This document shows positions 1,585 to 21,578 of a stretch of DNA of 64,000 nucleotides, piece by piece. Both the position numbers and the translations under genes were made by a program. The stretch is from positions 248,001 to 312,000 of the forward strand of contig NZ_SOBG01000001.1 of the NCBI RefSeq assembly GCF_004365575.1. Direction: 5' to 3'. The stretch is from Hypnocyclicus thermotrophus. GTDB lineage: Bacteria > Fusobacteriota > Fusobacteriia > Fusobacteriales > Fusobacteriaceae. The notes beneath the pieces are model-generated. The model did not search any database. It saw nothing but the letters and a program-made list of their open reading frames with translations, and was not told where the DNA came from. Numbering within the stretch: position 1 is the first letter of the stretch; the number at the start of each line of letters is the position of its first letter.

Positions 1585-1634
1585 TTACCTAATAAATACC
1601 AAGACATTGGTGTTTAAACCCTTTAATTCAATCT

Positions 1635-1672
1635 ATCCCCCCTTATAATATATTTATAAGGGGGGTATTATT
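1635..1672 (+). terminator. Rho-independent terminator after ptsI
   Basis: A perfect 12-bp stem (six C then TTATAA, paired with TTATAA then six G) around a 5-nt loop at 1637-1665. An AT-rich rather than pure T tail follows. It separates ptsI from the exopolysaccharide locus. Confidence 0.8.
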
Positions 1673-1856
1673 ATAAAAAAAGATAAAGATATACCAAAAT
1701 TGTAAAATAAAAATAAAAAATAATAAAACTTTAAAAAGTATGCATTTGGAGATACAATAAATAAATAAATATAAGTTCAGAATAAAGACTTATATATGAA
1801 AATTTACATAAAAAGTCCCGAAATTAAAAAAAATGTATTTATATCGAAAAAAGGTA

Positions 1857-1885
1857 TTTACAAAATTAATGAAAAATGATATTCT
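1857..1885 (+). promoter_or_regulatory. Promoter of the exopolysaccharide locus
   Basis: TTTACA (-35, 1857-1862), 17 bp, then TATTCT (-10, 1880-1885) preceded by an extended -10 TG at 1877-1878. It is the best sigma-70-type match ahead of the first gene of the locus. A second extended -10 (TGCTATTAT, 1906-1914) lies closer to the start but would leave almost no leader. Confidence 0.6.
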
Positions 1886-1930
1886 AACATTGTGTGGTAA
1901 ATATGTGCTATTATATAAGTGGGAGTGGTT

Positions 1931-3331: not shown

Positions 3332-4346
3332 TATAGATATAGTTATAATAGGACTAAATGCAGAAAAAACAATAGTTAGATGTCTAAATAGTATAGAAGG
3401 AGTTATAAAAGTAAATAGTGATAAAAAAATAAAAGTATATTATGTAGATGGTGGGTCAGTAGATAATACACTTTTATTAGTGAGTAGATATAAGTTTGTA
3501 AATATATTAAAGTTTAATAAAAAAAATCCTACTCCTGGAGCACAAAGAAATTTTGGATGGCAGCAAGGAAAAGGAGAATATGTTCAATTTATAGATTCTG
3601 ACACTACTCTTGAATTAAGCTGGTTTAATGAGGCTTTAAATTTTATAAAAAAAGATGATAAAATTGGAGCCGTTTGTGGAAAAAGAGTAGAACTTTATCC
3701 ATATATATCTTTTTATAATTGGATAGGAAATATTGAATGGAATCCAAAATTTGGAAATGTTTTAGAATTTGGTGGAGATGTTTTTATAAAAAGAGAAGTT
3801 TTAGAAAAAACAAATGGTTATAAAGATAGTTTAATAGCTGGAGAAGACCCAGAACTTTCTTATAGAATTAGAAATTTAGGATATAAAATTTTGAAAATTG
3901 ATAGAGTAATGACATATCATGACTTAGCTATGATAAATTTTAGACAATATTTAAAAAGAAGTTTTAGAAGTGGATATGCATTTGCAGAAATCAACTATAT
4001 GTATAAAGATATGTGGGGACAAGAACTAAAAAGAATACTAGTAAGAGGAGGAATTTCTTTAATATTATTCATTATTGCTTTATTATTTGTGATAATAGAC
4101 TATAGAATTACTTTATTTGCTATATTGAGTTCGCTATTATTATTATTTAGACCAAGATTGTTTTTAGTAAGTAAGTTTATGATTCTTTATAATTTAAATA
4201 AAGATGAGGGTAAAAAATATGCTTGGCATGTATCGCTTGTTGTTTTACCACAATTTTTAGGAAGCATAAGATTTTATTTAGGAAAATTATTAAAAAAACC
4301 TTTAAAAAATAATAAGATGAGATTATCTACTGGAGGAATAAAATAG
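3318..4346 (+). CDS. Family 2 glycosyltransferase with C-terminal membrane segments
   Basis: GT-A fold transferase expected to add a sugar to the lipid-linked repeat unit at the inner face of the membrane. The N-terminus reads IDIVIIGLNAEKTIVRCLNS with YVDGGSVDNT following. QFIDSDTTLE supplies the DxD-type metal site, and AGEDPELSYRIRNLGYKI fits the acceptor-site ED motif. Two hydrophobic helices follow around residues 245-285. AAGGAG lies 6 bases before the ATG, inside the end of the previous gene. Donor and acceptor are unknown. Confidence 0.9.
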   Translation: MIQNSIDIVIIGLNAEKTIVRCLNSIEGVIKVNSDKKIKVYYVDGGSVDNTLLLVSRYKFVNILKFNKKNPTPGAQRNFGWQQGKGEYVQFIDSDTTLELSWFNEALNFIKKDDKIGAVCGKRVELYPYISFYNWIGNIEWNPKFGNVLEFGGDVFIKREVLEKTNGYKDSLIAGEDPELSYRIRNLGYKILKIDRVMTYHDLAMINFRQYLKRSFRSGYAFAEINYMYKDMWGQELKRILVRGGISLILFIIALLFVIIDYRITLFAILSSLLLLFRPRLFLVSKFMILYNLNKDEGKKYAWHVSLVVLPQFLGSIRFYLGKLLKKPLKNNKMRLSTGGIK

Positions 4347-5365
4347 TGAGATTTTTTTTTATAATATTATTATTAATGTTAACAATAAGTTGTAGTAATA
4401 ATAATACAAAAACTTTATATAATTTTAAAGATAATAATATTAAAAGAGAAACTATTAGTGATAGTGAAATAAAATTATCTTCTGCAGAAATAATAAAAAA
4501 ATTTAATAAAAAAATAAAAGAATATAAATTGAAGCAAGGAGATATAATAGAGCTTATTCCAAATGATATATCATTTAGTAAATTAGAATTAAAAATAACT
4601 CCTGATGGAAAAATTAATTTAAAAGATATTGGAGAAATAATAGCAGAAAATAAAACTATTTTTCAATTGCAAAATGAGATAAATAAAAAACTTTTAAATT
4701 ATTATGATAATTTGAATTATATAATCAATTTAAAGCAAGGGAATAACAGTGTATATGTTTGGGGAAATATTGCAAAACCTGGAGAATACAAGTCAAATTA
4801 TGAGGATACTTTAATTAAAATACTTACTAAAGCAGGAGGAATAAATCTTAATTTTGAAGATTTAATGGATACGAAAATATATTGTAAAATTATTCGTAAA
4901 AATGAAGCTATTGTTATAGATTTGGTTGATATGATCATAAATAATAATCTAATAGGAAATGTATATTTAAATGATAATGATATAATTTACGTGTCTATTG
5001 ATAAGATAAAAGAAAAAAATATATATGTTTATGGGGAAATTACTAGGGCAGGTAAATTAGAATATGAAAAAAATCTAACCTTAATTGATGTAATATTAAG
5101 AAGTGGAGGATTTACAAAAAACTCTGATTTAGAAAAAGTATATTATATACATAAAAATGATAAAAAATATGATATAAGAGTATTAAATTTTAAAAATATA
5201 AAAAATATAAATTACAATAAATTAATAGTAAAACCTGGAGATATGGTATTTGTTGAAAAAAATAATATGTCAAATTTTAATGATTTTTTAATTAATGTAC
5301 TGGAACCTTTAAAAGCAATAAATTTATTTACAGATACAGCAGTCAATATTAATAACTTAAAATAG
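4346..5365 (+). CDS. Wza-like polysaccharide export lipoprotein (SLBB domains)
   Basis: Outer-membrane export protein of the Wza family. The start is GTG, sharing one base with the preceding TAG stop. The signal peptide ends in a lipobox (LTISC, Cys16), so the mature protein should be lipid-anchored. The Poly_export domain follows (YKLKQGDIIELI, ITPDGKINLKDIGEI), then two SLBB repeats (VYVWGNIAKPGEYK and IYVYGEITRAGKLEY). It is followed closely by the Wzc-like gene, the usual exporter pairing. Its presence argues for a two-membrane cell envelope. Confidence 0.92.
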   Translation: MRFFFIILLLMLTISCSNNNTKTLYNFKDNNIKRETISDSEIKLSSAEIIKKFNKKIKEYKLKQGDIIELIPNDISFSKLELKITPDGKINLKDIGEIIAENKTIFQLQNEINKKLLNYYDNLNYIINLKQGNNSVYVWGNIAKPGEYKSNYEDTLIKILTKAGGINLNFEDLMDTKIYCKIIRKNEAIVIDLVDMIINNNLIGNVYLNDNDIIYVSIDKIKEKNIYVYGEITRAGKLEYEKNLTLIDVILRSGGFTKNSDLEKVYYIHKNDKKYDIRVLNFKNIKNINYNKLIVKPGDMVFVEKNNMSNFNDFLINVLEPLKAINLFTDTAVNINNLK

Positions 5366-5374
5366 GAGAAGTTT

Positions 5375-7450
5375 ATGAAATTAAAAAAAAGAAAACAGAT
5401 AATTCCTTTTTATATTTTACAAAAACATATAATTTTAATTTTGATTGTGGGAATATTATCTTTTTTTGTTGTGTGGAATAAATTGAAAAACACAGTTCAG
5501 ATATATTATGAATCAACAGGTATTTTAGAAATAGATCCAGTTATAGTTCCTACATTTTCAATAAATAGTTTTGAGGTATCTCAAAATAGTATTACTCAAT
5601 ATTACGAAAAATATGTAGGGACGCAAATAAAAAAAATTACAAGTAAAAAAATAGTAAAGAGTGCTTTAAAAAAATTAACAAAAGAAGAATTGAAAGCACT
5701 TTATGGTTCTGATGAGATAAATGATTTTTTAGTAAATATATTTATAAGAAAAATAAAAGTAGAATATTTATCTAATACACATTTAGTAAAAATTTCATTA
5801 CAATCAAAACAAAAAATAGGAATTGAACATTTTATTAATTATTTAATGAAAGAGTATATAAATGAATCTAATGATAATAAAATAATAGAAGATAATTTTA
5901 GAATACAATATCTTATTGAAGAAAAGAAAAAAATAGAATCAGAAATTCAAGGGAAATTAGTTTTAGTAAAAAAAATTGCTCAAGAAATAGGAACTGGTAA
6001 TTTTGATTCTAGTGATATGCCTTATAAATCAGAATTAAATAGTTTAGAAACTTCATATGTAGAAGTTTATAAAAATAAAATTGAACAAGAAAAAAAATAT
6101 TTTGAATTAAAAAATGAGATAGAAACTATAAAGAAAATGCCAATAGAAAAAGAGATTAAATCTCTTTTAATTCAAGATAGTGTATATAAAGAGATAAAAT
6201 TAAACTACATAGAAAAAATAAATAAATTAAATGATGAACTTGACTCCATTCCAAAAGGAAGTAATAAGGAAAAACAAATATTAGGAAAAATAAAAGTTTA
6301 TCAAAATAAAATAGAAGAATTAGAAAAAGAAACGAAATATAATCTGAAAAAAAATATAGAAAAATCTAGAGAATATGACCTTAAAATAAAAGAACTTAAT
6401 GCAAAAACAAATTATGAATCAGCAAAAAAACAAGAAGAAGCTATAAAAGAGCAACTTGAAGAAATAAGAGGAAAATATTCAGAAATTTCATTAAAAATAT
6501 TAGAGGCACAAGAACTTAATTTTGATATATTACAATTAAAAACTTCTCTTAGTGAGATAAAAAATAGGATATCATATCTTATTTCTGAAACTAAAAATCC
6601 TGGTCGTTTAAAAATTTTGGAAAGTGCTAGCAAAGTATATGGACCAGCTGGAAATGATGCTATGAAAAGAAAGGTTATTGCGTTAGTATTAGCTTTTGGT
6701 TGGATATCGTTTTTATGTTTTATATATGAAATATTAGATCAAAGGATTAAAACTCCTCAAGATGTAAAATATGCATTAGGATTTTCGTCGGCATGGCCTA
6801 TATCACATTTAAAAAAAGGAAATTTTATATCAGCAAGTTTATATAATACACATAGTGTTATATATAAAGCGATAAAAAGTCTTGTAACAAAATTAAATAT
6901 AGAAAGAGAAAAACATGGAGCTAAAATAGCAGTGATAAATGGGGTGGATAAAAAATCTGGTGTAACAGAATTGATAATAAATGCAGCTCATACAATGAGG
7001 GAAAATTGTGATAAGGTACTTATTCTTGAATTAAATACAGAGAGTGCAAATATCGCTAAAAAAATGCATATAGACATAGATCGAAATTTAGGATTAAAAG
7101 ATTATTTAACGGGGAAAAAATTAAATAAATGTATTTATAAAGATTATGAAAGAAATATAGATATTCTTCATATGGGCGGTATAATCAATATTACAAATAA
7201 AACAATAAAAGAAATTTTAGAAGATTTAAAACAAGAATATGATTTTATATTTATTGATTCAGCTCCAGTTATGCAATCAGCAATGACAGAATATTTGTTA
7301 TTACAATCTGATATTGCAGTACTTGTTATTCATGGGAATTATACAACACATAGTAAACTTATAAAAACCGTTGAGCTTATAAATCAATTTGAAATAGACA
7401 GCTTTACAACAGTAATAAATTGGGGAAGAGTGGGAAAATTTAAAAGATAG
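5375..7450 (+). CDS. Wzc-like polysaccharide co-polymerase with degenerate ATPase domain
   Basis: Inner-membrane protein controlling chain length and export with the Wza-like partner. One transmembrane helix lies at residues 15-36, then a Wzz domain, a long charged coiled coil (about 180-400), a second helix near 433-455 after a PAGNDAMKRK motif, and a cytoplasmic domain. That domain aligns with bacterial tyrosine kinases. The P-loop is replaced by INGVDKKSGVTE near residue 520, with no GK[ST], and Walker A' reads LILELNTES without its aspartate. Walker B (FIFIDSAP, about 625) survives. No C-terminal tyrosine cluster is seen. I infer a structural pseudokinase. Confidence 0.88.
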   Translation: MKLKKRKQIIPFYILQKHIILILIVGILSFFVVWNKLKNTVQIYYESTGILEIDPVIVPTFSINSFEVSQNSITQYYEKYVGTQIKKITSKKIVKSALKKLTKEELKALYGSDEINDFLVNIFIRKIKVEYLSNTHLVKISLQSKQKIGIEHFINYLMKEYINESNDNKIIEDNFRIQYLIEEKKKIESEIQGKLVLVKKIAQEIGTGNFDSSDMPYKSELNSLETSYVEVYKNKIEQEKKYFELKNEIETIKKMPIEKEIKSLLIQDSVYKEIKLNYIEKINKLNDELDSIPKGSNKEKQILGKIKVYQNKIEELEKETKYNLKKNIEKSREYDLKIKELNAKTNYESAKKQEEAIKEQLEEIRGKYSEISLKILEAQELNFDILQLKTSLSEIKNRISYLISETKNPGRLKILESASKVYGPAGNDAMKRKVIALVLAFGWISFLCFIYEILDQRIKTPQDVKYALGFSSAWPISHLKKGNFISASLYNTHSVIYKAIKSLVTKLNIEREKHGAKIAVINGVDKKSGVTELIINAAHTMRENCDKVLILELNTESANIAKKMHIDIDRNLGLKDYLTGKKLNKCIYKDYERNIDILHMGGIINITNKTIKEILEDLKQEYDFIFIDSAPVMQSAMTEYLLLQSDIAVLVIHGNYTTHSKLIKTVELINQFEIDSFTTVINWGRVGKFKR

Positions 7451-7459
7451 GACAAAAAT

Positions 7460-8779
7460 ATGGCTAAAGCAATTATTTTGATATTTATTTCAATGTTAAT
7501 ATCAGCTAGTTTTGTATTAAAAAATAAAAGTGAAAAATCATTTATATATATTGTATTACCTTCTATATTTTTATTTCCAAATAGTTTTTTCTTTCAATTA
7601 AATAGTTTACCACTTATGGAGATAACGATTCCTATTGCATCACTTTTAGTTATCTCTGCTTGGTACGTTTTTTTTAAAATTTACGAAGCAAAATTTACTT
7701 ATTTTGATTTTTTAATTTTACTTTATATAGTGGCTCAATTTATTATTGGAATAATAAAAGGTGAGTTTGGATTTAGTTTTCGAGTATTTCAAAGTGATTT
7801 AATACAAAACTATTTTTTGTATTTTTTTGCTAGATATTATTTTAGAAATAGTAAATTATTAAAAAAATCTCTTAAGATAATAGTAATAATAAACATATTA
7901 ATGCTTATTTTTGCACCTATGGAGATGTTTCAAGGGAAATATATTATAAAATATTTTTGGTTAAGTAGCTATCCTTTTTTACAACAAGCGCCACGTTGGG
8001 GACTCAATAGAATACAATTATTTTTTCCACATCCTATAATCGCAGGGATTTGTTATTCGATTTTTTCAATAATTTCAGTATATTTTTTTGTACATACAAA
8101 GATAAAAAAAGAAAAAATATTTTGGGGAATATCAGTTGTTTTAACATTTATCGGTGTAGTATTTTCTATATCAAGAGGGACAATTGCTTTTTTAATGATA
8201 TTTTATTTGGTATATTTTTTAGAAAGAAAAAAAATTAATTATAAATTTTTATTTATTATAGGAATAATATTTTTTATAGTATTTAAACAAGAATTTTCTA
8301 GTCATGAAGAAGTTCTGGATGATAGTGCAAATTATAGATTAAATTTAATTATGAATATAGATGAATTAATAGGTCAAAGTATGTGGATAGGTTATGGTGG
8401 AAATATAAAATATACTGGTAAAGTGGGATATGCTTGGAATAATGAAGATACGATGACAATAGATAATTTTTATTTATATCGGGTATTTACTGGTGGAATA
8501 ATATCTCTTTCACTTTTTATGTTTCTTATTTTTAGAGCATATTATGAATATCTAAAATTAAAAGAGATAAAAGAATGTATATTAGAAAAAGATATGAAAT
8601 TTGTAAATTTAGCGATAGTAGTAATTTTTTTTATTGTAATAAATTATTTCTTCGTAGCAAATATGTATACTACAGATCTTATATTATATATAATGTTTGG
8701 TATTATATCTGCAAACTATGAAAAATATATATTAAGTACAGATAACAAAGTAGAATATAAATTTAAAAGAATACTATAA
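7460..8779 (+). CDS. O-antigen polymerase/ligase-like membrane protein (Wzy candidate)
   Basis: A 439-residue protein with about ten hydrophobic segments and a large loop around residues 270-330, the general layout of Wzy/O-antigen ligase proteins. VVFSISRGTIAFL in the central helices matches the commonly seen SRG motif of this superfamily. It sits between the Wzc-like gene and the flippase, where a polymerase is expected. It would join lipid-linked repeat units on the outer face of the inner membrane. Wzy proteins are poorly conserved, so the call rests on topology and position. Confidence 0.8.
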   Translation: MAKAIILIFISMLISASFVLKNKSEKSFIYIVLPSIFLFPNSFFFQLNSLPLMEITIPIASLLVISAWYVFFKIYEAKFTYFDFLILLYIVAQFIIGIIKGEFGFSFRVFQSDLIQNYFLYFFARYYFRNSKLLKKSLKIIVIINILMLIFAPMEMFQGKYIIKYFWLSSYPFLQQAPRWGLNRIQLFFPHPIIAGICYSIFSIISVYFFVHTKIKKEKIFWGISVVLTFIGVVFSISRGTIAFLMIFYLVYFLERKKINYKFLFIIGIIFFIVFKQEFSSHEEVLDDSANYRLNLIMNIDELIGQSMWIGYGGNIKYTGKVGYAWNNEDTMTIDNFYLYRVFTGGIISLSLFMFLIFRAYYEYLKLKEIKECILEKDMKFVNLAIVVIFFIVINYFFVANMYTTDLILYIMFGIISANYEKYILSTDNKVEYKFKRIL

Positions 8780-8793
8780 GAGGAGCATAATAA

Positions 8794-10215
8794 ATGGCAG
8801 AATCAATAAAAAAAAATGTACTTATGGTAATATTAAAAAATATATCATTATTAGTTTTTCCCTTAATTACTTTTCCTTATTTATCAAGAGTATTAGGTCC
8901 AGAAGGGATGGGGATTATTAATTTTGCTACAACTTTTTCAAATTATTTTATGCTTATTCCCACAATGGGTATTTCGATGTATGGAGCAAGAGAAATAGCT
9001 ATAGCAAGAGATAATAAAAGAAAGTTAACAAAAAATTTTAAAGAAATATTAATAATTACATTATTATTTACATTTTCAATGTTTTTTTTATATTTAATAA
9101 CAATAATTAGTTTTGAAAAATATAATAAAAATTTTGTTTTTTATTTAATATTTGGATTTGGAATAATAACAAATAGTGTTAGTATAGAGTGGCTTTATAC
9201 GGGGCTTGAGAAGTTTAGCTATACAGTTTCAAGAGGAATAATAATACAAAGTTTATATATTATATCAATATTTATTTTTGTTAAAAATGAAAAAGATATA
9301 ATTTTTATACCAATTTTATTGTTATTATCTAGTTTTATACAAATGCTGATAAATTTTTATTATAGTAAAAAATTTATAAATTATGATCAAAAATTTCATT
9401 TGAAAATTTATAGTAGAATAAAACCAATATTAATTATAACTATAGGAACTTTAGCGTCTACAATACAAGTAACAATGGATATTATAATGTTAGGTTTTCT
9501 TACAAGCGATTGGAATGTAGGGATATACAACGCAGCAATTAGAATAAATAGAATAGTAATAGGACTTTTAATAAGTTTAGGAGCTATTTTTTATTCGAGA
9601 TTATCAAATGTATATGGAAATAATAAAAAAGATGAAGCAAATATAATATCTCAAAATTGGTTAAAGTACATATTGATGATAGTTTATCCGTCAATTATAG
9701 GAATATTTATTCTTTCGGATGAAATTATTTTATTACTTGCAGGTAATGAGTTTAAAGCGTCAATATTTACTTCGAGATTAATGAGTATAATAATATTATT
9801 CTCAGTATTAACAAATTTTTTTGCAATACAACTTTATTCTAATAAAAAGGAAAAAACAGCTATTAAAATAAATATTATAGGAGTAATTGTAGGATTTGTT
9901 TTTAATATTATTTTTATTCCATTATACAAACACAATGGTGCAGCAATTGGAACAATAATGATTAGTTTTATAGTTTCTTTTTTACATATGTATTACACAA
10001 AAAAATATATTAATATAAAAATAGATTTTAGAATTAAATATATTTTGTATAGTCTAATTATGGGAATAGTTTTGTTAAAAGTAAAATCATATTTAGACTA
10101 TAAAATTTATATAAACATTTTAATTATAACATTTTTAGGTGGATTAATATATTTTGGAATATTGTTTATATTTAAAGAAATAAATTTAGAAGAGATAAAG
10201 TTAAAGGGGAAATAA
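8794..10215 (+). CDS. Wzx-type polysaccharide flippase (MATE/MOP superfamily)
   Basis: A 473-residue protein with about twelve to fourteen membrane helices. The start of the first repeat, FPLITFPYLSRVLGPEGMGIINF, is characteristic of the polysaccharide transporter family; it continues to YGAREIA. It would flip undecaprenyl-linked repeat units across the inner membrane. GAGG lies upstream of the ATG, and the stop is immediately followed by the next gene's start. An A9 run near the start does not disturb the frame. Confidence 0.92.
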   Translation: MAESIKKNVLMVILKNISLLVFPLITFPYLSRVLGPEGMGIINFATTFSNYFMLIPTMGISMYGAREIAIARDNKRKLTKNFKEILIITLLFTFSMFFLYLITIISFEKYNKNFVFYLIFGFGIITNSVSIEWLYTGLEKFSYTVSRGIIIQSLYIISIFIFVKNEKDIIFIPILLLLSSFIQMLINFYYSKKFINYDQKFHLKIYSRIKPILIITIGTLASTIQVTMDIIMLGFLTSDWNVGIYNAAIRINRIVIGLLISLGAIFYSRLSNVYGNNKKDEANIISQNWLKYILMIVYPSIIGIFILSDEIILLLAGNEFKASIFTSRLMSIIILFSVLTNFFAIQLYSNKKEKTAIKINIIGVIVGFVFNIIFIPLYKHNGAAIGTIMISFIVSFLHMYYTKKYINIKIDFRIKYILYSLIMGIVLLKVKSYLDYKIYINILIITFLGGLIYFGILFIFKEINLEEIKLKGK

Positions 10216-11166
10216 ATGGATAAAGTACAAGTATTAATGGCTACTTATAATGGTGAAGATTTTATAAAAGAACAAATTAATTCAATACTCAATCAAACAT
10301 ACAAAAATTTTGAATTACTCATAAGAGATGATAACTCTAGTGACAAAACAGTGGAAATTATTAGAGGTTATATAAAAAAAGATAATAGAATAAAATTAAT
10401 AGAAGATAATAAAGGAAATATAGGTATAAATAAAAATTTTGAATTATTAATAAATATTAGTAATACAAAATATATAATGATAAGTGACCAAGATGACATA
10501 TGGTTTAAAGATAAAATTGAAAGATCTTTAAAAAAAATAAAAGAAATAGAAAATGATAAACCAGCATTAGTATTTTCAGACTCTATACTTTATAAAAATA
10601 ATTGTGAATTTGGAAATCATATAGGGAAAAAATTTTATAAATATAATGACTCTAAATTTCTAATGGGGATAAATATAGCACAAGGTTCTACAATGATTTT
10701 TAATGAAAAATTAAAAGAAAAAATTTTACCATTTAATTTTTATTCTGATTATTTGTATGATTTTTATATTTTTAAAAATGCAAAACTTTATGGTAATGTA
10801 TATTTTATAAAAAATCCAACAATGTATTATAGAATACATAATAAAAACCAAATTGGTATAGGTAGTGACTATCTAAATATTATATCTAAAATTCGTGATG
10901 AATATTATAGATATTTTATATTTTATAAAAAAATTAAAGCAGGTGCTTTATTTTATAGTAAAACAAAAGAAAAATATAAAAGAGATATGAATAAAAAAAT
11001 AGAAGTGTTTACACTAATTTTTTTATCAAATAAAAACAGGTTTATAAAATTATATTATTATTTCAAAGAGAAATTTTTTACATATAACTTTTATATAAAT
11101 CTATTTATTGTATTAAATATATTTGTAAATAAATTTAATAAAAATCTCAAGGGGGAAGACTTGTGA
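10216..11166 (+). CDS. Family 2 glycosyltransferase (rhamnosyltransferase-like)
   Basis: GT-A transferase beginning VQVLMATYNGEDFIKEQINS, followed by RDDNSSDKT and ISDQDDIW (metal-binding aspartates). This start is typical of the WcaA/RfbF-like GT2 group that often moves rhamnose; donor specificity is only a suggestion. The start abuts the flippase stop, with GGGGA as ribosome site. The C-terminal third is Lys/Tyr-rich without a clear membrane helix until a short hydrophobic stretch near the end. It overlaps the next gene by four bases. Confidence 0.88.
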   Translation: MDKVQVLMATYNGEDFIKEQINSILNQTYKNFELLIRDDNSSDKTVEIIRGYIKKDNRIKLIEDNKGNIGINKNFELLINISNTKYIMISDQDDIWFKDKIERSLKKIKEIENDKPALVFSDSILYKNNCEFGNHIGKKFYKYNDSKFLMGINIAQGSTMIFNEKLKEKILPFNFYSDYLYDFYIFKNAKLYGNVYFIKNPTMYYRIHNKNQIGIGSDYLNIISKIRDEYYRYFIFYKKIKAGALFYSKTKEKYKRDMNKKIEVFTLIFLSNKNRFIKLYYYFKEKFFTYNFYINLFIVLNIFVNKFNKNLKGEDL

Positions 11167-11771
11167 TAAAGAAAATAATAAGGAAATTAGTATATAAAAT
11201 CGCAATAAGAGACAAGAAATATATGGGATTATATAGAAAAATATGTAAACCAAGAAGTGATGAATATGCGGAGTATTTAAAAAAAATAAATTACCTATAT
11301 TCAATAGGTGAAGGATGTAGAATAAATCCATATGCTGGTTTTACAGATCCTAAATATGTAAAAATAGGTAATAATACATGTTTATCAGCGTGTACAATTA
11401 TTGGTCATGAAGGAGCAGTAGCAGTTTTTGCAACAGCAACAGGAAAAGTATTAGATAAAGTAGGAAAAGTAGTAATTGGTGATAACTGTTTTGTTGGATA
11501 TGGAGCAACTATTATGCCAAATGTAGTAATAGGAAATAATTCTATAATAGCATCTGGCTCTGTGGTAGCAAAAGATGTCCCAGATGGTGTAATTGTTGGT
11601 GGAGTACCGGCAAAAGTAATAGGACTTACCAAAGATTATATAATTCGCCTTGAAGAACAAACTAAAAAATATCCTTGGTATGATTTAATAAAAACAAGAA
11701 CAAAAGTATATGATGACGAAATGGAAAAAGAGTTACTAAAAATGAGATTAAAATATTTTTTTGAAGAATAA
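11163..11771 (+). CDS. Hexapeptide-repeat acetyltransferase (WcaF/LacA-like)
   Basis: A 202-residue left-handed beta-helix acyltransferase. Hexapeptide repeats run from about residue 60 to 160 (VKIGNNTCLSACTIIGHEG, GDNCFVGYGATIMPNVVIG, NNSIIASGSVVAKDVPDG) and end with IVGGVPAKVIG. It probably O-acetylates a sugar of the repeat unit using acetyl-CoA. The start is GTG within the preceding stop region, with a GGGGG ribosome site, so translation is likely coupled. The substrate is unknown. Confidence 0.88.
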   Translation: MIKKIIRKLVYKIAIRDKKYMGLYRKICKPRSDEYAEYLKKINYLYSIGEGCRINPYAGFTDPKYVKIGNNTCLSACTIIGHEGAVAVFATATGKVLDKVGKVVIGDNCFVGYGATIMPNVVIGNNSIIASGSVVAKDVPDGVIVGGVPAKVIGLTKDYIIRLEEQTKKYPWYDLIKTRTKVYDDEMEKELLKMRLKYFFEE

Positions 11772-11782
11772 AGGGGAACATT

Positions 11783-13009
11783 ATGAAGAAAATACTTTAT
11801 TTATGCAGTGAATATCCAGCACTTTCTCATACTTTTATTGATGTGGAAGTTGATGAATTATCGAAAAATTTTGAAATATATACTAGTTCTATAAATTATC
11901 CTAAAAATATAGAAAAATTTAGTGATGACTATGTAAAAAGATTGAATAAAACGTACTATATAAAAAAAGAAAATAAAAAAAATATTTTATTGATAGTATT
12001 AAAATATTTTATTATAAATCCATTAAAATTTATTAATATATTAAATTATACCTATAATCTTTCTGTAAAAAATGGAGTAAAAAATATTATTAAAGCAGTG
12101 GGATATTTTATAGAAGCAATACTTTTACATAATTATATGAAGAAAAATAATATAAAGCATGTACATATACATTTTGCAAATCCAGCAGCTACAGTAGCTT
12201 TAATTGCTAAAGAGTTTGAAGGAATAGAATATAGTATTAGTGTACATGGACCTGATGTTTTTTACAATGTAAAAGAAAATTTAATTGTTGAAAAAATAAA
12301 AAATGCAAAATTTATAAGAGCAATTAGTTATTTTTGTCAGAGTCAACTAATGAGAGAATCTACACCAGATTATTGGGATAAAATAAATATTATAAGGTGT
12401 GGTATAGATTTATCAAAATTTAATAATATAAATGAATTTGTAAAAGAAAAAAAAGAAAATGATAAAATAAATATTTTATGTGTAGGAAGAATAGTGCCAA
12501 GTAAAGGACAATTATTATTAGTAGAGACAGTAAAGAAAGTTATAAAAAAAACAAAAAATTTTAAAGTAACATTTATTGGAGGTGGAGAATATTTAAAAAA
12601 TTTAAAAGAAAAAGTAGAGAAATCGAATTTGGAAAATTACATAGAAATATTAGGGCCTGTAAATAATGATAAAGTTATAAAAGCTCTTGAGAGTAGTGAT
12701 ATATTTGTATTGCCATCATTTGCTGAAGGAGTTCCAATAGTTTTGATGGAAGCAATGTCTAAGAAAATTATTACTATTTCTACTAAAATAAATGGAATTC
12801 CAGAACTTATAGATGATAAAAAAGATGGGTTTTTAGTAGAAGCTTCAAATATTGATGAATTAAGTGAATTATTAATTGAGATTATAAAAAACAGTGATAA
12901 TTATAAAGAATTAAAAAATAATGCAAGAAAAAAAATAGAGAAAAAATACGATATAAGAAAAAATATAATTAAATTAAAAGAATTATTTGAAGAAAATATA
13001 AGTGATTAA
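11783..13009 (+). CDS. Family 4 glycosyltransferase (WcaL/colanic-acid type)
   Basis: GT-B fold transferase of 408 residues. The N-terminus KILYLCSEYPALSHTFIDVE and HIHFANPAATVALIAK resemble the WcaL/AmsK group. The C-terminal nucleotide-sugar domain shows ILCVGRIVPSKGQ, the PSFAEGVPIVLMEAM donor-binding motif with catalytic-type Glu, and ATISTKINGIPEL-like sequence. It is a retaining transferase adding one sugar to the lipid-linked unit. AGGGG precedes the ATG. Confidence 0.92.
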   Translation: MKKILYLCSEYPALSHTFIDVEVDELSKNFEIYTSSINYPKNIEKFSDDYVKRLNKTYYIKKENKKNILLIVLKYFIINPLKFINILNYTYNLSVKNGVKNIIKAVGYFIEAILLHNYMKKNNIKHVHIHFANPAATVALIAKEFEGIEYSISVHGPDVFYNVKENLIVEKIKNAKFIRAISYFCQSQLMRESTPDYWDKINIIRCGIDLSKFNNINEFVKEKKENDKINILCVGRIVPSKGQLLLVETVKKVIKKTKNFKVTFIGGGEYLKNLKEKVEKSNLENYIEILGPVNNDKVIKALESSDIFVLPSFAEGVPIVLMEAMSKKIITISTKINGIPELIDDKKDGFLVEASNIDELSELLIEIIKNSDNYKELKNNARKKIEKKYDIRKNIIKLKELFEENISD

Positions 13010-13031
13010 TAAAATTTAATTAGGAGGAAAA

Positions 13032-14183
13032 ATGTTACTGATTGTTTCGATAATATTAGTTATATGTACTTTACCTGGTTTTTTGGAGATAACTTTATTA
13101 ACTTTTTCTAATGTATTTTTAAAAGATAAAAAAAATAAAAAAATAAAAAAAGATATAAAGTTAGCAGTATTAATACCTGCACATAATGAAGAAAAATTAA
13201 TAAAAAGATGTATTAAAAGTATAAAAAAATCTAGTGATTTAGGATATTCGTATGATATAATTGTTATTGCAGATAATTGCACTGACAAGACAATAGAGAT
13301 TTCGAAATCTGAAAATGTAAAAGTTTTAGAGAGAAATAATAAAGAAAAAAGAGGAAAAGGTTTTGCATTAAAATATGCAATGGAAAAGTTAAAAAATGAA
13401 AATTATTATGGATATATTATCATTGATGCAGACAGTATAATAAAAGAAAATTTAATAGAAGAATTTGGGAATGCTTTTTTAAATGGTGCATTAGCAGTAC
13501 AATGCTTAAATTTTGTAAACGAACCATATATTAGCAGAAGAAACAGTTTAATGCATTTAGCACTTATGTCAATGAATGGGCTTAGACCATTAGGCAGAGA
13601 AAAATTAGGAATTTCAGCAGGGATATTAGGAAATGGGTTTGCATTATCGAAACAACTTATTGATGAAATTGGATATAATGTAAATTCTATTGCAGAAGAT
13701 ATTGAATATCATTTAGAGATTATTAATTCAGGTAAAAAAGTAAAATTTCTAAAAGATACGGCTGTATATTCTGATTTTCCTACTACTGAAGAAGGAGCTA
13801 AAAGTCAAAGGGCTAGATGGGAAGGGGGAAAATTTTATTTACAAAAAAAATATTTTTTTAAATTATTAAAAGAGGTATTTAAAGGGAAATTTCATTTAAT
13901 AGAACCTTTGTTAGATCTTATGATTTTACCATTAGCTTTTCAAGTAACGTTATTATTAATTATTGGAATTATAGGAGGAACTGGATTTAAAATTTATTCT
14001 TTAATAAATATTTTTATTATCTCATTTCATATAGTTTTATCTGTATTATATTTTGGAAAATTAAAGGATTTATTAATTATTTTTGAAGTACCAAAATATA
14101 TATTTTGGAAAATTATAAACTTACCGTTGATATTAAGCCATTCTAAAAAAAATACAGAATGGATAAGAACAGACAGAAAATAA
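13032..14183 (+). CDS. Membrane-anchored family 2 glycosyltransferase
   Basis: A 383-residue protein with an N-terminal membrane helix, a GT2 domain (LAVLIPAHNEEKLIKRCIKS, IADNCTDKT, YIIIDADSI) and two to three C-terminal helices. AEDIEYHLEI and the QRARWEGGK motif correspond to the ED and Q/RxxRW motifs of processive beta-glycosyltransferases. It could therefore be a processive or cellulose-synthase-related enzyme rather than a single-sugar transferase. A strong AGGAGG precedes the ATG. Confidence 0.88.
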   Translation: MLLIVSIILVICTLPGFLEITLLTFSNVFLKDKKNKKIKKDIKLAVLIPAHNEEKLIKRCIKSIKKSSDLGYSYDIIVIADNCTDKTIEISKSENVKVLERNNKEKRGKGFALKYAMEKLKNENYYGYIIIDADSIIKENLIEEFGNAFLNGALAVQCLNFVNEPYISRRNSLMHLALMSMNGLRPLGREKLGISAGILGNGFALSKQLIDEIGYNVNSIAEDIEYHLEIINSGKKVKFLKDTAVYSDFPTTEEGAKSQRARWEGGKFYLQKKYFFKLLKEVFKGKFHLIEPLLDLMILPLAFQVTLLLIIGIIGGTGFKIYSLINIFIISFHIVLSVLYFGKLKDLLIIFEVPKYIFWKIINLPLILSHSKKNTEWIRTDRK

Positions 14184-14202
14184 AGAAAGGTAATAGAATA
14201 TA

Positions 14203-15177
14203 ATGATTGATATATCTGTAATAATAGTATCATTTAATACGCGTGAATTATTAAAAAGATGCATAAATGAATTAAAAAAAGAAATTATGGAAATATCCCA
14301 TGAAATTATAGTAGTAGATAATGATTCAAGAGATGGGACAATAGAAATGCTTGAAACAGAATTTAAAGATGATATTATCCTTAGAAAAAGTGGAGGAAAT
14401 TATGGTTTTGGGATAGCAAATAATTTAGGATATGAAATGGCAAAAGGTAAATATATTTTATTATTAAATTCTGATGCATTTATAAAAAAAGGAAATTTAA
14501 AAAAGGCGCTTGAAAAAATAGAAAGTGATAAGACAATAGGGGTATTAGGTGCTAAGCTGGAATGTGAAAATGGTGATTGGCAACCATCACCAAGATCTTT
14601 TCCAACAGTTTTACAAGATTTTTTTGTACTTAGTGGAATAGCAAGTAAATATAATAAGTCGAGTTTTTTTGGGAAATCTTTAATGACATATAAAAATTTT
14701 AATAAAGAGTTTGAGTGTGATTGGGTAACTGGAGCATTTATGCTTATACGTAGTGATATTATAGGGAAAAAAATATTTGATGAAAGATATTTTATGTATT
14801 ATGAAGAAGTAGATTTTTGTTTAAAAATAAAGGAAAAAGGCTATAAAATAATATATTATCCAGAAGTAGAGGTAATTCATTTAGGAGGAGCTTCAACGAG
14901 TATATTTTCAGAGAAGTTAATATCTAAAAATGGAATGCAGATGACATTATGGAGACTACAGAGTCAATATTTATATTATAGAAAAAATTTTGGATTAATA
15001 ACAGCTTATTCATCTAAATTAATGGAATTAACATGGAATATTATTAGAACATTAAAAAATAAAAATAATAATTTAAAAAAAGAGGAATCAAGAATTATTA
15101 TAAAAATGATTAAAAAGGCATGGGAAAATACAAAAGGTGGAAAAATTTCTCCGGCTTTTCCTTGGAAAGGATATTAA
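14203..15177 (+). CDS. Family 2 glycosyltransferase (WbbL/rhamnosyl type)
   Basis: A 324-residue GT2 enzyme. It shows ISVIIVSFNTRELLKRCI, VVDNDSRDGTIEML, NYGFGIANNLGYEMAKGKY, LLLNSDAF, DWVTGAFMLIRSD and YYEEVDFCLKIKEKGYKI, the hallmark series of WbbL-like rhamnosyltransferases. It is soluble or peripheral. The ribosome site is weak (AAAGG), so expression may depend on coupling to the upstream gene. Specificity for rhamnose is inferred from family resemblance only. Confidence 0.9.
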   Translation: MIDISVIIVSFNTRELLKRCINELKKEIMEISHEIIVVDNDSRDGTIEMLETEFKDDIILRKSGGNYGFGIANNLGYEMAKGKYILLLNSDAFIKKGNLKKALEKIESDKTIGVLGAKLECENGDWQPSPRSFPTVLQDFFVLSGIASKYNKSSFFGKSLMTYKNFNKEFECDWVTGAFMLIRSDIIGKKIFDERYFMYYEEVDFCLKIKEKGYKIIYYPEVEVIHLGGASTSIFSEKLISKNGMQMTLWRLQSQYLYYRKNFGLITAYSSKLMELTWNIIRTLKNKNNNLKKEESRIIIKMIKKAWENTKGGKISPAFPWKGY

Positions 15178-15212
15178 ATTTATTGGGTGTGTGGAGTGTA
15201 AAGGAGAAAAAT

Positions 15213-15704
15213 ATGTTTGAAAATATAAGGGAAGATTTTCGGAATTATAATAAAAAAATTGAATGGGGATTTATTGCTATGCTAATTTATAGATTTGGAA
15301 GATGGAGATATAGAATAAAAAATTCTTTTATTAGAAAACCATTCTCATTAATTTATAAAATACTATTTTTTTATATAAAAGGAAAAGGGATAGAAATACC
15401 TTGTGAAGTAGAAGTAGGTAAAAATTTTAAAATTGATCATCAAGGAGGGATCATTATTAATGGTTACTCCAAGATAGGAAATAATTGTAGAATAAGACAT
15501 AATGTAACATTAGGAATAGCTAGAGTTGGAGAAACAAAAGCTCCAATTATTGGAGATAATGTAGATATTGGTGCAGGAGCAATTTTAATAGGAGATATAA
15601 AAATAGGGAATAATGTTTTGATTGGTGCAGGAGCAGTTGTATTAACTGATGTACCGGACAATTGTACTGTAGTAGGAGTACCAGCAAGAATAATTAAGAG
15701 GTAA
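15213..15704 (+). CDS. Serine O-acetyltransferase-like hexapeptide transferase
   Basis: A 163-residue protein of the CysE/colanic-acid acetyltransferase type. Repeats such as FKIDHQGGIIINGYSKIG, RIRHNVTLGIA, GDNVDIGAGAILIGDIKIG and NNVLIGAGAVVLTDVPDN end in TVVGVPARIIKR. The frame is open from 15120 inside the previous gene. ATG 15213 has AAGGAG 7 bases upstream and the family-typical beginning, so I use it. It most likely acetylates a glycan sugar here rather than serine, judging from the locus. Confidence 0.88.
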   Translation: MFENIREDFRNYNKKIEWGFIAMLIYRFGRWRYRIKNSFIRKPFSLIYKILFFYIKGKGIEIPCEVEVGKNFKIDHQGGIIINGYSKIGNNCRIRHNVTLGIARVGETKAPIIGDNVDIGAGAILIGDIKIGNNVLIGAGAVVLTDVPDNCTVVGVPARIIKR

Positions 15705-15707
15705 GAG

Positions 15708-17210
15708 ATGAAGAAATTTTTTTTAATACTATTTTTGAGCATATATACGTCATTATTTTCGATGTCCATAGGTGTGAATGTTGATTGGATATATGACTGG
15801 AGTAATATGAGTTTATTTACAGACCTTATAAAACAAGCTAGAGGGTTTGGAGATAGTAATGAACCATGGAAAAAAATAGGCGAAATAAAAACAGATAATA
15901 ATGGATGGCCGATAGAAGATTTTGGGATAGTTGTATACAGTGGAAGAAAAAATTATTATGATAAAATATATAATTTAACTTTTGATATTGTAGACAAAGT
16001 ACCTGAAATAAAATTTATAAAATCAACTGGAACTATAAAAAATATAAAAATAACAAATAATAGATATAGTGCAAAACTTTATTTACCTAAAGATAATACA
16101 CAATTAATATTGTCTTTTAAACATATAGGTAGTGGAATAAAAAATATAAAAATAATAGATGAAAAATATAAAAATAATGAAGTGTTTACTGAAGAATTTA
16201 TTGAAATGCATAAATATTTTAAAGTGCTTAGATTTATGGAATTAAAAAGAATAAATGAAACTAGTATCGAGAATTGGAAAGATAGAACTAAAAAAGAAGA
16301 TATTTTTCAAAATAAAAAAGATGGAATAGCATGGGAATATATAATAGATATAGCTAATACATTAAATAAAGATATTTGGATAAATATTCCATATAAAGCA
16401 AATAATGAATATATAAAAAGTTTAGCATTACTTTTAAAAAATGGCTTGAATAAAAACTTAAATATTTATATAGAATATAGTAATGAATATTGGAATACTA
16501 TTTTTCCACAAAATACATGGTTAAAAGAACAGTATATAGAACAAATAGAAAAAAATAAGAATTTAAAAGAATATAAAGTGAAAAATGAATATTTTAAAGC
16601 AACATTAATTGCAGTAGAAAAACTTATAAAAATTAATAAAATTTTTAGTGAAATTTTTGGGAAAAGTGAAATAAATAATAGAGTTAGAATAATAATAGGT
16701 GCTCAAATTGTATGGACAGATGTAATAAAAACACAACTTAAATATATAAAAAAATATTATGGAAAACCAAATAAATACTTTTATGGATTTGCAGGGGGCG
16801 CTTATATAAATGTAGAAAATCCAGATAATAAAAATTTTAATGATATATATAATTTTATTAATAATAAAATAGAAAATTCACCATTAGATTTACAATACAA
16901 AGAAAATGTAAAAATTTCTAAAAAATACAATATAAAATTTTTAGCATATGAAGGTGGAATAGATATTGCAGGAAATGATTTTAAATCCAGTAATGAAATA
17001 GAACAAAAATTTATACAGACAGAAGATTATGTAAAACTTATGAAAAAATATTTAGATATTTGGGATAGATATACAGATAATAGCTTATTTATGTGGTATA
17101 AATCAGGGGCATCAAATAATTGGGGATTTGTAGAAAGTATGGATAATTTAAAAAATAAAAAATTTATTAAAATTAAAAAATTATTATTAGATGAAAATAA
17201 AAAGGAATAG
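15708..17210 (+). CDS. Secreted glycoside-hydrolase-like protein of the polysaccharide locus
   Basis: A 500-residue protein with a signal peptide (KKFFLILFLSIYTSLFS), so exported. The catalytic half has IYIEYSNEYWN, where Glu260 follows Asn as in the acid/base position of clan GH-A hydrolases, and LAYEGGIDIAG with Glu415 in the place of the nucleophile. These suggest a TIM-barrel glycosidase. I do not recognise a specific GH family, and the N-terminal half (about 30-150) looks like a beta-rich accessory domain. It could trim, release or size the polymer made by its neighbours. It starts three bases after the acetyltransferase stop. Confidence 0.65.
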   Translation: MKKFFLILFLSIYTSLFSMSIGVNVDWIYDWSNMSLFTDLIKQARGFGDSNEPWKKIGEIKTDNNGWPIEDFGIVVYSGRKNYYDKIYNLTFDIVDKVPEIKFIKSTGTIKNIKITNNRYSAKLYLPKDNTQLILSFKHIGSGIKNIKIIDEKYKNNEVFTEEFIEMHKYFKVLRFMELKRINETSIENWKDRTKKEDIFQNKKDGIAWEYIIDIANTLNKDIWINIPYKANNEYIKSLALLLKNGLNKNLNIYIEYSNEYWNTIFPQNTWLKEQYIEQIEKNKNLKEYKVKNEYFKATLIAVEKLIKINKIFSEIFGKSEINNRVRIIIGAQIVWTDVIKTQLKYIKKYYGKPNKYFYGFAGGAYINVENPDNKNFNDIYNFINNKIENSPLDLQYKENVKISKKYNIKFLAYEGGIDIAGNDFKSSNEIEQKFIQTEDYVKLMKKYLDIWDRYTDNSLFMWYKSGASNNWGFVESMDNLKNKKFIKIKKLLLDENKKE

Positions 17211-17242
17211 TATTATTTAGCGATGTAAAAAAGGAGTGAAAT

Positions 17243-17989
17243 ATGGATGAAATAACATTAGTAAATGATCTAAAGATAACAGGATTTGAATCGTATAACG
17301 AATTATTCAATGAGATATTATTAAAAAAGAACATTCAAAATTTTTTAATTATTAATTATATGTATTGGGTTCCTTTTGTAAAAGCTAGAAAAGATAAAGA
17401 TTATTTAGAATCTTTAAAATATTCAGGTTATATTTTACCAGATGGAGTAGGACTTTTAACATATATAAAAGTTTTATATGGAAAAACATTATTAAATTTA
17501 AATGGAACAGATTTAAATCCAGAATTAATAAAATTTTTTAATGATAAAAATATGAAGATAGCACTTTACGGTACTACTCAAGAAAATATAGAAAAGTGTG
17601 TAAAATCTTTAAATTCAAAAAATATTGATATATATTATTATCAAAACGGATATAGGGGACTTGATTTTTCTAAAATAGAAGATAATTCAGTTCTATTTGT
17701 AGGGAAGGGTAGTCCAATACAAGAGATTTGGGTGAAAAATAATTTTAAAACTATAAAAGAAAAAAAGCTTATAGTAGTCACTGTAGGTGGATATTTTGAT
17801 TTTGAAGCTGGTTTTTATAAAAGAGCTCCTAAATTTATAAGAGATTTAAAAAGTGAATGGATATATAGAATTTTAGACAATCCTAAATTACAAATACCTA
17901 AATATATAAATAATTTTTATTTTCCATGGTTTATATTTAAAGACTATATTAAACTCAAAAAGAAAGTAAAAGAAAAAATTTATGTATAA
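17243..17989 (+). CDS. WecG/TagA/CpsF family glycosyltransferase (GT26)
   Basis: A 248-residue transferase that adds an amino sugar or hexose to a lipid-linked acceptor. Family marks are YILPDGVGLL, LNGTDLNPEL (the catalytic Thr/Asp region), YQNGYRG, FVGKGSPIQEIWV and VGGYFDFEAGFYKRAPKFIR followed by LKSEWIYRILDNP. It is the last gene of the locus, after a 32-base gap with AAGGAG, and is followed directly by a strong terminator. Confidence 0.93.
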   Translation: MDEITLVNDLKITGFESYNELFNEILLKKNIQNFLIINYMYWVPFVKARKDKDYLESLKYSGYILPDGVGLLTYIKVLYGKTLLNLNGTDLNPELIKFFNDKNMKIALYGTTQENIEKCVKSLNSKNIDIYYYQNGYRGLDFSKIEDNSVLFVGKGSPIQEIWVKNNFKTIKEKKLIVVTVGGYFDFEAGFYKRAPKFIRDLKSEWIYRILDNPKLQIPKYINNFYFPWFIFKDYIKLKKKVKEKIYV

Positions 17990-18026
17990 AACTTTCAAAT
18001 TAATTTTTGAAAGTTTTATTTTTTTT
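17988..18026 (+). terminator. Terminator of the exopolysaccharide locus
   Basis: A 12-bp stem (AAAACTTTCAAA paired with TTTGAAAGTTTT) with a 6-base loop, followed by ATTTTTTTT. It begins at the stop codon of the last transferase and is the first intrinsic terminator seen after 1665. Confidence 0.92.
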
Positions 18027-18093: not shown

Positions 18094-20379
18094 ATGAAAC
18101 GGGTAATAATTCTAAATTTATTGGTAATAATGACGTTTTTTACAGGTTGTTTTGGGAATAAAGATAATAATACAGATACTATAAATACTGGAGGAGGAAG
18201 TGCGTCAGTTGTAACGGTATCTGGTAATTTATCGACAATATCAAGTGCAACTACTAATGGAAGTATAGCTTTTAATACAACAGGAACAAGTGTTACGGGA
18301 AAATATAAATATATTTTAGCTTGAAACAAAAGAACCTATAAAAGGTGAAATAAAAAATGATGGTTCGTTTTCTGTATCTGTTTTTACAGGAGAATATATG
18401 TTTTATTTCTTAAATGAGTATGGAATAAAATTAAATGAACTTGGATTTGATACTAGTGATAAAACTGTTGGGGAAATAAATAAAAGTCTTGATTTAGGTG
18501 ATATTGAAGTAGATGAAATACAAAATAAAATAGTTGCAAAAAGCGAGAATATAGAAACAAAAGATGGAAATAAAGTTGTGATACAAACAAAAACTAAATC
18601 AGAAGTTAAATTAAATAATACAATTATTAAAACAAAACTAAAAAAAGTAACAAAAACTATAATAGAAGATAATAATTTAGGAGAAGTACAGGAAGATAAG
18701 ATAATAATTATTGTAAAATCAACAGATACAGTAAAACAAAAGATAGTATTAGAATTTTCTAGTGAATCAGAATCAGAGGATGTACCAGAATTAGAATTTA
18801 AAACTATAAAAATAGTAAAAGAAGAAAAAATTACAATAAATGGAGAAACCAAAGTAAAAATAACAACTAAAACAAAAACTATAGTCACATTTGATGCAAA
18901 AGAAGTAGGAAAAGATATTGAAACAGTAAATGATAAATTGAAAGATGATTATAATGATGGAATATTAGATACATCAAATATTTTAACATGGAATATAACT
19001 GCAGATGATTTTAATGTATTAAACCCAAAATCATTATCCGAAGTATATGATAGTATAAGAAATATAGAAAATAAAAGTAATAGTAATGCTATAAATTATT
19101 TATTTAAAGCTATATTAAGTACAGAAGAGCTTGAAACCACTATTAGAGACGAAATATTAGATGGATTGAATAATACTACATTGGTAAATCAGCTTAAAAA
19201 TGATACGGATTATAAAACATTTAAATATGCATTAGATTTTTATAAACCTTCTACTTTTTATAATCTACAATCAAAAAATGTATTGAACAAATTAGATAAT
19301 ATAGTAGATTTAATAGAAAATTCTTATTTAGTAGGTGAAACAGTTGTATTAGATAGTAAAATTTAACAGATGGATATAATGTAATTATTACGCCAGAAGT
19401 GTTTGAAATAATGAGTGGATTATTTAAAGTATTTGTGTCTCAAGTATATTGGTTGGCTTCTTTTGATATTTCTGATGAAGCTGATTATACTATATTTGAA
19501 AACTTAATAGAAAATTTTGATTCGTTATATTCAAATTCAAATACATTAAGTGAATTTTTAAATAGTTATTTTAAAGATCTATCTACATTTGATGTAAATA
19601 ATGATTATCAACAAAAAGCTCTTACTTATATAAAAGAAGCAATAACAGAAATTATAGAAGGTATAGATGGAATATCTGTATATAATGTTGATAATTTGTC
19701 AGATAAGGCAAATATTATTTCTTTTGATTCTCAAGTAGAGAAAGATGATTTATTAGATGGATTAGAAATAATAAAAGAAGCATTAAGTGATGAAGGAGCA
19801 ATAATTAAGACAGAAGATGGAGAATCATTTAGAATTAATTTATCAAAATTATACACTTTTGATTTGAAAAAAATGATGATAGATTTGACACAAGGAATAA
19901 CAAATTTAGACAAAGCAGATTATGAAATGGAAGTGAATTTTTTAAATTCTACATTAGGTGGAATTTTCCCTGATGGTATACCAACTTTATTAAAAGATGA
20001 TATATTAGAAGTTGAAACATATGAAGAAAGACCAGTAATATTAGATAATGGAGAAATGTATTGGAAACATTTTATAGTTATAAGAGAGTATGATAGTAAT
20101 TATAAATTTACAAAAGCAGAAGTATATGATGAAGAAAAAGATGAATTAGTAGCAAAATATATATATGAATATGATGATGAAAATAATACAGTAAAAGTAA
20201 TAATAAGTGATAAAAATGGAAATGAAACTGGGGAATATAGATTATATCAAAATAAATTAAACGGACATCTCATAGAAGAAGTTGTTTTAGTATATGAGTC
20301 TAATGGAAAAGAAATATTAATGAAATACATGTATGATGAAAATGGAAATAAAACTAGCGAGGAAAAAGTTATTAATTAA
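18094..20379 (+). pseudogene. Frameshifted large surface lipoprotein
   Basis: Three consecutive open stretches read as one about 760-residue lipoprotein. Residues 1-76 have a signal peptide and lipobox (FFTGC) then a Ser/Thr-rich start, ending at TGA 18322-18324. The next frame continues LETKEPIKGEIKNDGSFSVS without its own start. The shift must lie between the TAG at 18317 and the TGA at 18324. At 19357-19366 (TAAAATTTA) the frame shifts back and continues LTDGYNVIITPEV to 20379. The middle is Lys/Glu/Thr-rich and repetitive; the end has imperfect YIYEYDDENN-type repeats. I do not recognise the family. It could be a decayed gene, phase-variable, or carry sequencing errors. Confidence 0.75.
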
Positions 20380-20383
20380 AAAT

Positions 20384-20413
20384 AAAAAGCTCTGTAAATA
20401 CAGAGCTTTTTTT
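20384..20413 (+). terminator. Terminator after the lipoprotein pseudogene
   Basis: AAAAAGCTCTGT pairs with ACAGAGCTTTTT around an AAAT loop, ending in a T7 run. It shows the region was, or is, an independent transcription unit. Confidence 0.9.
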
Positions 20414-20432
20414 AAAAAGTCTAAGGAGAAAT

Positions 20433-21578
20433 ATGAAAAAGAATATTTTATTATTTTTATTATTATTTAATAATATTTTTTCAAATGAAATATTTTATAA
20501 ATATAGTAATCTATATAATAATACTGAGTATAAAATATATTCTCAAAATTATTTTATAGATTACAATTTTTTTAATGTAAACTATGTTGAAAAAAAAATA
20601 AAATTCCAGAAATAGATTATTTTAGTGATTTATTAAATCTAGGATTAGATTTTAAATATTATAGTTTTGAATATAAAAGTATAAATTTTAAAATACCGTA
20701 TTTTTATTTAGATAATGAGAAATTAGAAATGGAAAAAAGTAAAAATTATATAATATCAAATAGAATAACAATTCCTTTTAAAAAATATAAAATAAGTATT
20801 AAATATAGTAAAAATATTAATCAAAATTATAAATTTATATCAAATTATGGTAACTTTATTTTTAATGATTTTGATTATAAAGGTTATAAATATAGTATAG
20901 AAAAAGGTAAATATAAATTTATATATGATATTAATAGTTTTAAAACAAATTTTAAATTAAATAACGTATCTGAATTAGGAAAATTTAATGGGAAATGGTA
21001 TTTAATATCATTAGGAACAAATAATTTAAAGATTAATTATAGAAAGATTTATTCAACTTCATATTTTGATATAACTAAAAATAATGCATTTTTTGTTACA
21101 AGTAGTCTGGATAGATATTTTTATGGGAAAGCTAATATAGATATAGAAAATTATGAATTAGAAAATGACTATATTAAAAAAATTATAGAAATAAATTTAT
21201 ATTAAATAATAAATTTGGTATTATACAAAATAACAGTAATATTTATTTAATGACAGAATATTATAAAACTCTTCTTAATCTTTTTTTTATTAAAATATCA
21301 GAAAAATACAAAACAGAAAATATATATTATGATATACCAAAATATATGTATTATAATATATTAAATATAGGATATGAGAGAAAGATAAAAAATAATTTTA
21401 TTATAGGTATAAATAAAATAATTCCAATTGTATTAAATATAAAAATAAAAACAATAAAGACAAAAAAAATAATATAAATGCAAATATGATGGGGGATATG
21501 AATAAGAATTTTAAAATAGGAAAAACGAAAGAAATAATCTTAAGTGGAGTAACAATTTATTTTAAATATGAAATCTAA
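20433..21578 (+). pseudogene. Frameshifted outer-membrane-like protein
   Basis: Begins with AAGGAG and a signal peptide (KKNILLFLLLFNNIFS). It then breaks into four frames that read as one protein of about 380 residues, rich in alternating hydrophobic/polar, Tyr- and Asn-rich strands as in a beta-barrel, ending GVTIYFKYEI. Each break is a -1 shift whose permitted interval contains a poly-A run: A9 at 20590-20598, A7 at 21176-21182, A8 at 21462-21469. One extra A at each restores the frame. Family unknown. It follows the lipoprotein pseudogene, so the two may form a surface pair. Confidence 0.65.

Follow-up and report, generated by a model that had tools for sequence, protein, structure and literature searches.

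Recent frameshift pseudogenes of AT-rich bacteria are dispensable genes broken by single-base indels, often placed in runs of A, in which codon bias and expression signals are still kept. In insect endosymbionts, Tamas et al. reportedly described in 2008 genes that are disrupted at poly(A) tracts and rescued by polymerase infidelity (cited in PMC5574713). Phase variation, by which a gene is switched on and off, usually depends on one tract, not three. Homopolymer contingency loci, for example the G/C tracts of Campylobacter, unite surface genes with homopolymer tracts (PMC8355987).

Here we describe two adjacent genes of Hypnocyclicus thermotrophus, located within a window of 64,000 nucleotides (positions 248,001 to 312,000 of contig NZ_SOBG01000001.1), by whose numbering all coordinates are given, and both read on the forward strand. 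Gene 1 (18094-20379) is lipoprotein-like and gene 2 (20433-21578) is strand-rich; a surface role for the two products may be supposed. A sequence-only reading of the window had reported five frame changes in these neighbours, a claim that is borne out by recomputed frames, stop-to-stop limits and a codon model, with moderate support for the fifth. We consider that the two are recently inactivated orphan surface genes, that is, pseudogenes, with a probability of about 0.7. They share with the frameshift pseudogenes of AT-rich bacteria the features given above, but here a neighbouring pair of genes carries five shifts, two of which lie outside runs, and the relatives searched yielded no intact orthologue to prove the ancestral frames. 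The endosymbiont genes likewise lose their frame at A runs, in a genome that is AT-rich, whereas at this locus there are several shifts per gene, some outside runs, and A7-A8 is not avoided in coding DNA. In contrast to contingency loci, there are three scattered tracts of A7-A9, all out of frame, and a single long tract acting as a switch is lacking.

The draft genome comprises 2.22 Mb in 17 contigs and is 99.98% complete. Its purine nucleoside phosphorylase is nearest to Cetobacterium (77%), which makes a place in the Fusobacteriales most likely, and its composition and family structure would suit Hypnocyclicus, with a GC content of 24.8% (PMC8310279). The codon model was 3-periodic and of order 4, and was trained on long open reading frames from 459 kb of the same genome with the 18094-21578 region excluded. 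Broken genes were sought with a frameshift-aware Viterbi scan, setting aside overlapping genes and stretch ends, in the window and in about 395 kb of stretches sampled as background, 60 kb of which lie outside contig C1. By the codon model and the stop-to-stop limits, the reading frame of both genes is interrupted in what was formerly coding sequence, and the long pieces have positive coding log-odds throughout in the expected frame, with scores like those of intact genes that match them in GC.

In gene 1 the coding signal crosses two one-base frame changes. The first piece (18094-18324) begins with a start codon that has GAGGTG on its 5' side, encodes a putative lipoprotein-type signal peptide and ends at an out-of-frame stop, its in-frame log-odds being positive; the candidate lipobox, recognised by eye, is FFTGC behind a hydrophobic stretch, with F at the -3 residue where L is usual. 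A +1 step, confined by stop-to-stop limits to 18320-18324 and free of any homopolymer, leads into the second piece (18323-19366), of which the 347 codons score 0.33 each on average, placing it at the 84th percentile among intact genes with a comparable GC content. A -1 step similarly limited to 19360-19366 leads to the third piece (19366-20379), with 337 codons reaching a natural stop at 0.35 per codon (89th percentile). Runs of at least six bases are absent near both shifts, while the two A7 runs that gene 1 does contain are unshifted, and its GC content of 24% is ordinary. A structure model shows beta repeats at the C-terminal end with a local pLDDT of about 70-82. Just past the first shift (18385-18400), an in-frame ATG at 18398 has AGGAG six bases to its 5' side and is a possible internal restart.

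Gene 2 has a GC content of 14.5% and contains three one-base frame changes. Its first piece (20433-20615) has a start codon with AAGGAG and a signal-like hydrophobic N-terminal stretch; the frame then changes within 20591-20615. The second piece (20600-21205, about 201 codons) is strand-rich, stands at the 71st percentile of genes of similar GC and is open beyond chance (P<0.0005). The next change lies within 21178-21205, again by stop-to-stop limits as for the one before, and is followed by a third piece (21208-21477) that is recognised by its openness, its coding score being weak. The last change (21417-21477) is the least supported of the five and precedes a final piece of 32 codons (21478-21578) ending in an aromatic, beta-strand-like tail. 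In the short pieces generally, where coding scores are near zero or low, the frames rest mainly on openness, for which shuffling gave P<0.0005 for the 84-codon piece and 0.016 for the final 32 codons. This last shift is only moderately supported, because the final piece is short and 3% of ordinary gene ends (9 of 306) look alike in the same frame. As the sequence-only reading had stated, all three steps are -1 and each occurs at a poly-A run (A9 at 20590, A7 at 21176 and A8 at 21462). All three runs of at least A7 in gene 2 are at shifts, while its T7 and T8 runs are unshifted; in genes of similar GC, intervals this wide hold such an A run by chance with probabilities of about 0.09 x 0.10 x 0.23. 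A single-sequence AF2 model of the second piece is mostly strand at very low confidence (pLDDT 29.5), and the label 'barrel-like' is a guess; the quality of the structure models was insufficient for comparing folds.

Between the genes, a terminator-like hairpin at 20384-20411 is listed on the reverse strand, although its stem also reads on the forward strand and is followed there by a T run. Promoter matches barely exceeded those in shuffled sequence (54 against 42), and no promoter is claimed. Directly upstream (window 1-18000) is a cluster for polysaccharide export and synthesis, comprising an SLBB export protein, an AAA kinase, a Wzy-like protein, a flippase, several glycosyltransferases and a WecG gene; this last has relatives in just 2 of 40 other genomes searched. 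At 46455-47591 there is a Rep3-type plasmid initiator-like protein (Rep3_C), on what is a chromosome-sized contig.

Comparison with orthologues, proposed by the sequence-only reading, found no intact counterpart of either gene (gene 1: 61-96 genomes of the order and a GTDB contig scan; gene 2: 61 genomes). For gene 1, a search of 96 genomes of the order gave no relative of the third piece, one of 61 gave just marginal, partial matches to the second, and the GTDB contig scan returned no relative; gene 2 had no usable relative in 61 genomes, and neither gene matched any Pfam family above cut-off. Marginal protein matches (L011, L012 and L127-L130; E 4e-4 to 0.07) were rejected as orthologues, being short parts at 25-35% identity. 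DNA matches to gene 2 elsewhere in the genome were low-complexity AT sequence, and protein comparison disclosed no paralogue. Such missing relatives are as expected of dispensable genes.

The contrast that the sequence-only reading drew with all other genes holds within the window, where the Viterbi scan found no further shift outside gene overlaps and where an A8 near 5383 and an A9 near 8808 sit within intact genes; across the genome, however, broken genes as such are not uncommon, and seven others were found in the 395 kb outside the window, each with one shift and all accessory. In a type I restriction methylase, HsdM, the frame change (L119:5397-6916; G000:C1, about 317.4-318.9 kb) parts HsdM_N from N6_Mtase. 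The other six, with one frame change each, are a GGDEF sensor, an FtsX-type permease, a GNAT acetyltransferase, and TPR, MFS and MatE proteins, and are found at L112:1875-3427, L115:16818-18064, L118:3843-4281, L119:11896-12479, L122:4088-5286 and L124:863-1427. A Pfam scan of six of the seven (all but the TPR protein) confirmed the named family, with matches flanking the break on both sides for HsdM and MFS. Most raw Viterbi shifts were discarded as overlaps between ordinary genes, marked by a Shine-Dalgarno site, or as stretch-end artefacts; a candidate in L124 near 10184 crosses a run of N and another in L114 is a gene end, and neither was counted. The sample suggests that about 2% of the genes of this genome are broken and, because the other broken genes are accessory too, accessory-gene decay is its normal background. 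Five shifts within 3.5 kb, set beside seven genes of one shift apiece in the remaining 455 kb, have a P of about 4e-9 to 5e-8, calculated post hoc.

The 312 intact genes contain 826 runs of at least A7, 258 of at least A8 and 41 of at least A9. Synonymous shuffling of the 459 kb shows no depletion of A7 (568 seen, 535 expected) or A8 (217 and 200), but coding runs of at least A9 are depleted (41 against about 80 expected) and those of at least T9 are absent (0 against about 11). A runs of 7-8 bases, being as frequent as expected, are probably not strongly slippery in this genome, and runs of at least nine A are probably slippage-prone, since they are avoided; the latter depletion agrees with a nine-nucleotide threshold reported in many bacteria (PMC1088944). 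General homopolymer sequencing error is unlikely, because it would break many intact genes that bear such runs.

The sequence-only reading had left the choice open between decay, assembly error, and phase variation or slippage. Decay is now the best supported, because the shifts are concentrated in two orphan genes, equal runs read through by the hundred elsewhere, and nonsense codons are absent. The main competitor, which we regard as unlikely yet ahead of the remaining alternatives, is a local sequencing or assembly error, such that both genes would be whole in the organism, bases having dropped out of the consensus in a difficult and extremely AT-rich stretch. The very low GC of gene 2, its three shifts at A runs and the lack of accompanying nonsense codons would all suit an error of this kind, as would a draft in 17 contigs of which one sampled stretch (L124) has a run of N, maybe from masking. 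But fifty intact genes below 20.5% GC read through, some of them at 11.5-15% GC with runs of at least A8, and neighbouring genes ought to have been hit too; nor would such an error readily explain gene 1, in which GC is ordinary, both shifts are outside long runs and the A7 runs are intact. A different possibility, that each piece is a small gene in its own right, or that an internal restart in gene 1 yields an N-terminally truncated protein, is very improbable. The ATG at 18398 with its AGGAG speaks for a restart; however, coding signal persists from the 18324 shift to this codon, and the product would have no signal peptide and would still run into the second shift. The other pieces have no Shine-Dalgarno-linked start near the junction, and they abut or overlap within 5-61 bases, lacking the start signals and the spacing expected between real genes.

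Slippage rescue or phase variation would have the A runs of gene 2 produce some full-length protein or on/off switching. This we hold to be improbable, because the shifts of gene 1 are outside long runs, gene 2 needs three simultaneous corrections, and A7-A8 is not depleted. It draws some support from the uniform direction of the steps in gene 2, a direction for which RNA polymerase could compensate by insertion slippage, from the predominance of insertions at A/T runs (PMC5574713), from reports that expression may persist in disrupted genes bearing A9 runs (PMC1088944) and from the avoidance of longer A runs in coding DNA here. Yet all three corrections (A9, A7 and A8) would have to occur in one transcript, while E. 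coli RNA polymerase reportedly needs runs of seven T or more, and still longer ones of A (PMC6260861), and genome-wide transcript data from Buchnera showed no restored frame (PMC5574713). In gene 1, shifts without a run leave nothing to be rescued in this way. Slippage-prone runs, typically A/T of at least nine, do not accompany each shift, there being A9 at one, A7 or A8 at two and none in gene 1; neither is there a single hypermutable switch tract, since gene 2 has three separate out-of-frame steps and the steps of gene 1 are outside tracts. The specific proposal that the three A runs of gene 2 are each held one step out of frame, allowing low-level expression through serial RNA polymerase slippage, seems to us the least credible of all.

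Under recent decay, the two genes would have encoded accessory, lineage-specific surface proteins, one lipoprotein-like and one strand-rich and exported, on which selection was presumably relaxed when they were no longer needed. Single-base indels would then have accumulated, the one-base losses of gene 2 probably arising mainly by replication slippage in A runs and the shifts of gene 1, which lie outside runs, requiring ordinary indels, and both genes would have lost their function. No in-frame nonsense codons occur alongside the shifts in either gene. About 6.2% of substitutions in the two genes would create a stop; some 48 substitutions would therefore be needed before three stops were expected, which sets a ceiling of about 1.4% per site on neutral divergence since the genes were inactivated. 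Provided that the genes are in decay, the complete absence of nonsense codons means that the decay is recent, although it could also be read as an artefact specific to indels. Start codons, Shine-Dalgarno sites and the terminator-like hairpin are kept, as are long pieces with normal codon bias; the kept Shine-Dalgarno sites in both genes and the normal codon bias count against decay.

For annotation, the open reading frames of this region are best recorded as two broken genes rather than six or seven small proteins. The run counts provide a yardstick, in that A runs of up to eight are tolerated at their expected frequency and those of at least nine are avoided, which bounds slipperiness in this AT-rich genome. 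The decay of accessory genes is, in this organism, an ordinary process.
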